Of a stretch of 43,479 bases of DNA, positions 121-5,336 are shown in pieces. The first letter of the stretch is position 1. Each line of letters opens with the position of its first letter. Source of the DNA: a virus. Location: positions 1 to 43,479 of IMG/VR virus record IMGVR_UViG_3300025131_000090, one strand, 5' to 3'. Under the pieces are notes generated by a model that did not search any database, was not told the DNA's origin, and saw nothing but the letters and a program-made list of their open reading frames with translations. A program made the translations under genes and the position numbers.

Positions 121-270
121 CTCAATTAATATATTAGGGCTACACGGTCACTGGCGTTCCAACCTTTCGGTGAACTAGGCCAGATTACGTTATCTCAGCA
201 AATTGTTTTATGCTATCGCCCCAAATTCTAGAGCCGCTTTGGGTTACAAGGTAGCGGCAAACCTTGTTTG
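121..270 (-). ncRNA. Candidate structured RNA or leader between two leftward genes
   Basis: No convincing ORF lies here. Read leftward, 183-151 folds as a 12-bp interrupted hairpin: CTGGC, three unpaired bases, GTTC, ACC, loop GAAA (a GNRA tetraloop), GGT, two unpaired bases, GAAC, GCCAG. At 233-267 two overlapping stems compete: GCCGCT (233-238) with AGCGGC (253-258), and ACAAGGT (246-252) with ACCTTGT (261-267). The GNRA loop is GAAA only on the minus strand, which suggests a leftward RNA. I do not recognise the family. The resemblance to a thi box is partial and its core is missing. It could be a small RNA, a riboswitch-like leader or a processed 3' end. Confidence 0.4.
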
Positions 271-1168: not shown

Positions 1169-1286
1169 TACTATCAATAATAAGGCCACACATCAAAATA
1201 ACGCAATTTTTCTAGTAATTATAACTTGGGCAAGCTTGACAAATGTATTAGATTAAAGGGTGGTAGGGCAAGGGAAAATAAAAGGT

Positions 1287-3157: not shown

Positions 3158-3348
3158 TGAAGAAAAAAAAGACATATAGTAAGCATGATTTAAGAAGGTC
3201 AATAGAAGAAATATCTATGACTACCCAATTTATAATCCAGAGATTAAGAACATTAGAAACATTATTCAATGATTATATTGAAATGGAAGATAATGAAGAT
3301 AAATTTAAAGAGTTTTTAGACAATAAATATAAACAAGACAATGAGTAA
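3157..3348 (+). CDS. Small helical protein upstream of the terminase
   Basis: A 63-residue product. The ATG at 3157 overlaps the preceding TAA (TAATG), which I prefer to an in-frame TTG twelve bases earlier. It has a Lys-rich N-terminus (MKKKKTYSK), then one long helix (residues about 10-45) with coiled-coil character containing QRLRTLETLFNDYIEM, then an acidic/Lys tail. Similar short proteins of the form RLxxLExLFxDYIE occur near phage terminases; their function is unknown. It overlaps the SET gene by 8 bases. Confidence 0.65.
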   Translation: MKKKKTYSKHDLRRSIEEISMTTQFIIQRLRTLETLFNDYIEMEDNEDKFKEFLDNKYKQDNE

Positions 3349-3781: not shown

Positions 3782-5336
3782 TTCTCAGGATGTATCAAAA
3801 GCTGAAGAAGCCCTACGATTAGCTAGTAAAGACCTTATATCATTTGGTAAACTATTCCTTCCAGATGATTTCATGCGCAGTGAGACTCCTTTCTTTCATT
3901 ATGAAGTAGCCGATGCTATTGATAATCTAAATGTAAAACAAACTGCTATTATTATACCTCGTGGTCATGGCAAAACCGTACTTACAAAAGCATCAATCAT
4001 TAAAGACTTTGTATTTGCAACAAAAGAAAATTTCTTATTTTATGCTTGGGTTTCTGCTACGCAAAAGCTTAGTGTTGGGAATATGGATTATATCAAACAT
4101 CATTTAGAATACAATGATAAGATAAAATATTATTTTGGCCCTATGAGAGGTAGGAAATGGACAGAAGAAGACATAGAACTAACAAATGGGTGTAAACTTA
4201 TTAGTAAAAGTAATGTCGCAGGAATCAGAGGGGGAGCAAAACTTCACAAAAGATACGACCTCATTGTCCTTGATGACTTCGAACACGAAGCAAACACAAT
4301 CACGAAAGACGCTAGGGATAAGAACGCTAATTTGGTTACCGCTGTTGTGTATCCCGCTATTGAGCCTCATACTGGTAGGTTGCGTGTTAATGGTACTCCC
4401 GTACATTATGACTCTTTCATTAACAATCTTATTACTAATTACTCAAAGGCTAAAAAAGATAATAAAAAGTTTTCATGGAAAGTTATTACTTATAAAGCAT
4501 TACTGGATGAAAATACACCATTATGGGAATCATTTTTTCCATTAAAGAAAATACAAGAAAAGAAAAGATTCTACGCAGATTCAGGACAACCTCAGAAGTT
4601 TTACCAAGAATACATGATGGAGGTTATGAGTGAAGAAGATGCAATATGGAGAAGAGAGCATATCAGATACTGGGAAGGTTACTTCAAAAATGAAGATGGC
4701 ATTAATTACATTGTTAAAGATAATGATGATATTCCTGTCAATACATTCATTGGTTGCGACCCTGCAACAGATATAGATACTAAGCATAGTGATTTCTCAG
4801 TAATAATGGTTATTGCTATTGATACTAATAATGAATTATATGTATTAGAATATGAGAGACATCGAAGTATCCCCACTATTGGTTCTAAGAATCCAGAGAC
4901 TGGTGAAATACTTGGTAAGAAAGGAGTTGTGGATATAATCCTAGAATTGCATCAGAAATATAACTGTATGTCATCTACTGTAGAAGACGTTGCTATGAAT
5001 AGAAGTATCTTTCAGGCCCTAAATGATGAGCGAAGAAGGATAAATAAGTACGATATCGCAGTAATTCCTGAGAAACCGGGCGGACAACAAAAGAGAAATC
5101 GCATTTATTCGGGACTTGCGGCCCGTTTTAGTACAGGAACGGTACATTTAAGGAAAAATATGTTTGATTTAATCAACGAAATCCTTACTTTTGGCCCCAA
5201 AATGAGCCACGATGACACAATAGAGAGCCTTTATTACTCACAAGTGCACGCTTTTCCGCCAAATATGAAAAAAGATGAAAAGAAAAGAAGTTGGTTCAAA
5301 CCTAAAAGAAAGGCAAAAAGTTGGTTAGTAGCTTAA
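3753..5336 (+). CDS. terL: Terminase large subunit
   Basis: A 527-residue packaging motor. The ATPase half has Walker A PRGHGKT (69-75), Walker B YDLIVLDDFE (168-177) and coupling motif NGTP (213-216). The nuclease half has the RNase H-like acidic residues: D336 in FIGCDPATD, E411/D412 in TVEDVAMN, and D487/D488 in SHDDTIESL. All key residues are intact and the length is usual. It pumps DNA through the portal and cuts concatemers. The ATG at 3753 overlaps the SET gene by 29 bases in another frame; homologous start sites would be needed to confirm it. The basic tail (KKRSWFKPKRKAKSW) is likely functional in DNA contact. Confidence 0.95.
   Translation: MGLKKKVNINSQDVSKAEEALRLASKDLISFGKLFLPDDFMRSETPFFHYEVADAIDNLNVKQTAIIIPRGHGKTVLTKASIIKDFVFATKENFLFYAWVSATQKLSVGNMDYIKHHLEYNDKIKYYFGPMRGRKWTEEDIELTNGCKLISKSNVAGIRGGAKLHKRYDLIVLDDFEHEANTITKDARDKNANLVTAVVYPAIEPHTGRLRVNGTPVHYDSFINNLITNYSKAKKDNKKFSWKVITYKALLDENTPLWESFFPLKKIQEKKRFYADSGQPQKFYQEYMMEVMSEEDAIWRREHIRYWEGYFKNEDGINYIVKDNDDIPVNTFIGCDPATDIDTKHSDFSVIMVIAIDTNNELYVLEYERHRSIPTIGSKNPETGEILGKKGVVDIILELHQKYNCMSSTVEDVAMNRSIFQALNDERRRINKYDIAVIPEKPGGQQKRNRIYSGLAARFSTGTVHLRKNMFDLINEILTFGPKMSHDDTIESLYYSQVHAFPPNMKKDEKKRSWFKPKRKAKSWLVA

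Follow-up and report, generated by a model that had tools for sequence, protein, structure and literature searches.

To our knowledge, only a few structured noncoding RNAs have been described from phages, most of them singly. Among the systems closest to the locus reported here, phage PhiTE is described as escaping by means of a ToxI-like RNA, pseudo-ToxI (PMC3475682), and pseudoknot features of ToxI and CptI are set out in PMC5086642. The put RNA of HK022, by the account cited, acts on early phage transcription (PMC9378689), and large RNAs of the GOLLD/ROOL type are presented as ornate structured RNAs from comparative genomics (PMC12286853).

The DNA studied here is the record of an uncultured virus, IMGVR_UViG_3300025131_000090, whose whole stretch of 43,479 bases we call the window. 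Genes for terminase, portal, and endolysin lie on its plus strand, and its left end is taken up by an arm of leftward genes, where a gap of about 250 bases separates ORF 278-520 from the gene starting at position 27. Module A, the pseudoknot in this gap, resembles ToxI and the PhiTE pseudo-ToxI RNA, as outlined in PMC3475682, in being a short pseudoknot of the H type that lies in an intergenic gap of a phage; unlike ToxI, it is present in one copy per locus, with no tandem repeats, at 24 loci, and it is chained to unrelated modules. Likened by description to put (PMC9378689), the modules are likewise structured RNA elements in a phage operon, whereas put as portrayed there differs from these portable elements of many families that lie inside the operon. 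With the GOLLD/ROOL-type RNAs, as characterized in PMC12286853, they share an origin in comparative genomics and an ornate structure, but here short domains reassort independently and find no Rfam match. No description of the modules was found in open-access PMC literature, although one may have been published.

The folded segment in the leftward gap

The earlier note had singled out positions 121 to 270, between two leftward genes, as a folded candidate RNA on the leftward strand. Its location holds, with ORF 278-520 on one side and the gene with its ATG at 27-25 on the other. A check for an overlooked protein found none, the segment being free of ORFs of at least 40 amino acids on either strand. 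The structure is real, but the limits were drawn too narrowly, since the feature spans positions 48 to 267 (Table 1). The folding energy of 121-270 has a z score of -1.2 on the minus strand and -0.2 on the plus strand, that of 28-280 minus reaches -3.0, and that of module C alone -5.3. Because folding energy does not single out 121-270, the case for it rests on relatives.

Three queries, ORF 278-520, the terminase small subunit, and gene 795-1076, brought together about 90 related IMG/VR loci, and extra loci with module A or family D were added by pattern scans. The covariation check that the earlier note had proposed came out in its favor in these relatives: compensatory changes were found in modules A and B and in the associated family D, supporting a folded, conserved, noncoding RNA. 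Its failure to match the segment to a known riboswitch also agrees with our search, in which no Rfam family reached its gathering score for the window segment. We put the chances at about even that the segment consists of three RNA domains (A, B, and C), folded separately and strung in a chain in the noncoding leftward gap, this being one arrangement of portable single-copy modules with C as an antisense arm.

A promoter-like motif, AACTTGGGCATTAACT, recurs ahead of leftward genes, at 636-652 on the minus strand of the window and in many related left arms. An opposite copy lies near the rightward terminase operon (1223-1232, plus strand), and the motif is unlike a sigma-70 promoter.

Table 1. 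Features of the window and of related loci (positions refer to the window unless a locus is named)
Feature	Position	Strand	Basis or remarks
Start of downstream gene, MKQDLFEKI...	1-27	minus	ATG 27-25; AAAGGAG ahead; cut by window edge
Module C	48-123	minus	Long closing stem, inner hairpin, conserved CCGUCCAUCAU; fold, copies
C antisense stretch, CCGUCCAUCAUA	100-111	minus	Conserved; reverse complement of 778-789
Module B, closed domain	137-222	minus	Fold, copies, both-side changes
B closing stem	218-221/137-140	minus	Fold
B second stem	211-214/199-202	minus	Fold
12-pair hairpin with GAAA loop, within B	151-183	minus	Sequence, fold; one both-side change
Module A, H-type pseudoknot	224-267	minus	Sequence, copies in relatives, compensatory changes
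A stem S1	261-267/246-252	minus	7 bp, perfect
A stem S2	253-258/233-238	minus	6 bp, perfect
A loop 1	259-260	minus	Two bases
A last loop	239-245	minus	A-rich
A tail, UCUAGAAUU	224-232	minus	Follows pseudoknot
ORF, 80 aa	278-520	minus	Upstream of module chain; no PHROG match
Element T	756-789	minus	UAUGAUGGACGG (778-789), then hairpin 773-779/756-762, loop AGGUGAUAGC
ORF, 93 aa	795-1076	minus	Element T at its 3' end
Family D, example	L029 4401-4487	minus	Plus 44 other loci
E/F module sites	L051 2110-2223; L083 4520-4628	minus	Recurrence in contigs
E/F module site	L095 240-435	plus	Recurrence in contigs

Module A forms a pseudoknot

Both stems that the earlier note described are present and perfect (S1 and S2 in Table 1). 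It had taken them to exclude one another; in fact they share no base, and their order, a-b-a'-b', is that of an H-type pseudoknot. Ten copies were aligned by hand, since MAFFT put the first strand of S1 in the wrong place wherever loop 1 holds a hairpin; near-identical copies (e.g., L095, L085, L109, and L127) were not entered. In this alignment, S1 is paired in 65/70 cells and S2 in 55/60, both sides of the helix having changed at S1 pair 2 (C-G, U-A), at S2 pair 1 (G-C, C-G), and at S2 pair 4 (G-C, A-U). Seven copies hold an additional hairpin in loop 1, with stems GCC/GGC, GAC/GUC, GUC/GAC, or GCU/AGC and 20 of 21 cells paired; L047, with its loop-1 insertion of 70-odd nucleotides, was counted for this hairpin and excluded from the S1 and S2 figures.

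The nearest Rfam score of module A is to the last pseudoknot of beta_tmRNA (RF01850), at 16.1 bits (E 0.0059) and also 14.4 bits (E 0.0024). Sequence and layout are similar, but the score falls well short of the gathering score, 84 bits. A tRNA-like domain and a tag frame are lacking, and ARAGORN finds no tmRNA gene in the window and five related loci, so that we rejected tmRNA.

A pseudoknot followed by a CUAGAA-type tail, with content that is accessory, portable, and variable, also brings to mind a decoy RNA directed against a host RNA-based defense, for which the pseudo-ToxI of PhiTE, as outlined in PMC3475682, provides a phage precedent. Against this stand the single occurrence of A and the lack of a match between A and the ToxI model (RF02519), by which ToxI identity was rejected. 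That model, a short one, has no means of describing pseudoknots; its sole match in G000 lies elsewhere (4184-4209) and below the cut-off. The ToxN profile (PF13958) gave no match in 10 contigs, nor did it in the control genomes. Host genomes, searched with family D, also offered no known partner. We regard a decoy function as improbable.

The tail of A in the window contains the palindrome UCUAGA, and L012 has the palindrome UACGUA instead, at 125-133; dimers may form through this palindromic tail. Stop-codon readthrough promoted by A after ORF 278-520 was also considered. It was rejected because the position of A relative to the stop varies: A overlaps the stop in L029, begins a few bases past it in L051, and lies about 86 and 117 nucleotides past it in L050 and L083, respectively.

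Module B, family D, and further elements

The hairpin at 151-183 that the earlier note described within what is now module B exists on the minus strand, with all 12 pairs (CUGGC/GCCAG, GUUC/GAAC, and ACC/GGU) and its GAAA loop. The loop, however, is not conserved, being replaced by a longer one in L019, and L097 and L095 do not form the hairpin as such; both sides have changed at one of its pairs. The closing stem of B changes from GGGGC/GCCCC to UUAGC/GCUAA in these two loci, and the second stem shows both-side changes at two pairs; on the covariation of B as a whole, two of five measures (both-side-change pairs and further pair types) are not above shuffles.

Family D is a three-way junction of 70 to 90 nucleotides with the nearly invariant loops CACAACUACAAU and CUCCGCA; it is absent from the window. 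Forty-five copies, from 66 sources picked mostly for having D and hence not a frequency, were aligned to its model with 92.3% of cells paired, in an alignment (A7) whose fitting to that model biases it in the model's favor. Covariation was strong, at 0.276 against 0.129 in shuffled and 0.029-0.090 in slid alignments, with two of five measures (again both-side-change pairs and further pair types) not above shuffles. A pattern scan for D returned 51 stretches, a few of them probably by chance. There was no match to Rfam, no match to the strict pattern in bacterial and archaeal genomes, and no conserved partner of the D loops inside the phage.

Several other elements were seen along the way in relatives. 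L081 carries a divergent form of D (oriented 3205-3330). Modules E and F, of about 110 and 200 nucleotides, recur with closing stems in several contigs. Another recurrent gap element, TTGGGGTG...GTTGGCT..AGATATGC..CACCCCAA, lies at L114 3303-3420, L109 2702-2818, and L129 12139-12254. The gap at L114 7250-7566 may hold a second pseudoknot, in which AGAGACGAG/CTCGTCTCT is interleaved with GGGTAGTC/GACTACCC.

Complementarity between module C and element T

The antisense stretch of C is the exact 12-nucleotide reverse complement of the first part of element T, which lies just past gene 795-1076. This complementarity is kept in 9/9 contigs with both elements, over 10 to 13 exact bases, and 0 to 11 of 300 shuffles gave an equally good match. 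L041 and L038 have CUGACGGACGG as their T, and their C-like modules read CGUCCGUCAGU and CCGUUCGUCAGUUAA, a coordinated change of both sides that may be a single event, given that the nine contigs are related and hold only two T/C types. Within each type, T and C fit one another, with helix scores of 11 and 14.5, as opposed to a score of 6 when the T of L041 is set against the C of the window. Computed duplex energies agree for the L041 swap (-21.6 versus -14.7 kcal/mol), and the T of L046 has near-equal computed binding to both C types (-20.5 and -20.3 kcal/mol).

A scan for complementarity between gaps, run after the T:C match had been noticed and not confined to it, recovered T:C among 24 pairs, compared to 7 in a reversed-sequence control; the remainder were mostly opposite copies of the promoter-like motif. 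C is present and T absent in L019, and L025 has T with no complement within 3.1 kb; four contigs with T (L014, L017, L034, and L036) end early. A dedicated scan for T gave no further T-bearing contigs. In the lowest-energy fold of the window, part of the antisense stretch is paired inside C. Clade left arms that lack T have other hairpins after the first gene, such as GGGGCCAGTCGGGTGAATCCAAGATGGCCCC in L053, L080, and L091.

The two features by which an antisense RNA is recognized, conserved complementarity to a target and coordinated change, were thus both found for T:C, in two types. Base pairing of C over a distance with T, after gene 795-1076, is therefore supported, although not proven, by these comparisons. 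If it takes place, C would act through T as an antisense arm directed at the 3' end of the message of gene 795-1076. Pairing would be in trans if T ends the message of the first gene; alternatively, if T is read through, it would be in cis and would tether two places on one RNA.

A structured RNA within a leftward operon could also be an antitermination element that acts on the nascent RNA, like HK022 put, which is reported to act on early phage transcription (PMC9378689). We consider this quite improbable for modules that sit deep in the operon and belong to many different families, the more so as C appears to pair with T instead.

Arrangement of the modules among relatives

Among the related loci, the modules were found as A-B-C, A-C, B-C, C alone, A-D, and E-A-D, and in the further orders F-D, A-E, and D-C. 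L003 and L004, with an identity of about 90% in ORF 278-520, have no A or B and proceed straight to C. Ahead of the MKQDLFEKI... gene, the window has A-B-C, L012 has A-C, L019 has B-C, and L021 and L022 have D; L015 and L056 have none of these modules directly ahead of it. Isolate phages gave no match beyond chance to the left end of the window and to the L097 chain.

The neighbors of the modules vary as well. Upstream of A are 11 identifiable proteins of 6 families and downstream of it 11 proteins of 7 unrelated families, and D, the best-sampled partner among the modules (one copy per locus, 70 loci), has 37 proteins of 14 families upstream and 39 of 16 downstream, counts that are not independent, as many loci come from the same or near-identical contigs. 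Both neighbors run in the direction of the module in 9 of 10 cases for A, the exception being a reverse ORF called in the window gap, and in 36 of 37 for D. Mean folding z scores in the clade are -2.3 for the sense and -1.3 for the antisense strand of intergenic gaps and -0.6 for coding segments (61 of 83 nonredundant gaps and all 46 coding segments, with genes from a simple caller). On these comparisons, we regard selection on RNA structure, placement on the sense strand, and independence from neighboring genes as demonstrated.

These observations bear on the reading of the segment as a switch or attenuator, to which the earlier note had pointed, and in particular as a metabolite switch or attenuator that controls the downstream gene. 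Conserved structure ahead of a ribosome-binding site would suit such a role. However, the two stems are compatible rather than exclusive, the gene downstream of A is of no fixed kind, modules come and go ahead of the same gene, and no terminator-like site was found in positions 1 to 1300. We have rejected this reading as extremely improbable.

At the DNA level, the edges of the modules match gene replacement sites between close relatives, which would fit cassette boundaries that serve as conserved linkers for gene recombination and whose RNA folds are incidental. Given that the compensatory changes in the pseudoknot and the sense-strand folding bias point to RNA, this seems very improbable to us.

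Alternatively, the modules could be general mRNA spacers that determine, gene by gene, how the leftward message is processed or decays. The RNase III sites of phage T7 are stable structures of this sort, setting RNA processing or decay. Such a role accords with the position of the modules between genes of the same direction, ahead of ribosome-binding sites, and with their AU-rich linkers. Yet a general site would be expected to recur within a genome, whereas every family here occurs once per locus, with conserved loops; we therefore consider spacers unlikely. Being single-copy, with varied neighbors and sense-strand folding, the modules are unlike a one-gene switch or a general processing site and look like gene-like RNA parts.

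A and B may each be a self-contained domain, with a role in protecting the RNA or in binding a factor of the host or phage. A host RNase could cleave the linkers between modules, which are AU-rich, and so release the modules as small RNAs. More broadly, it is tempting to speculate, as a tentative and rather doubtful proposal, that the clade has a toolkit of small structured RNAs that can be exchanged, set like beads between genes, each gene-like and with its own target (the phage's own T for C, host molecules for D and A), and gained, lost, and reordered like accessory protein genes.

What the present comparison offers is several families without Rfam match in one uncultured phage clade, recurring in changing orders, two of whose elements, T and C, appear to pair. 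If this is confirmed, accessory RNA genes would be units of phage evolution beside accessory protein genes, and each conserved loop would offer a ready means of probing for a host target.
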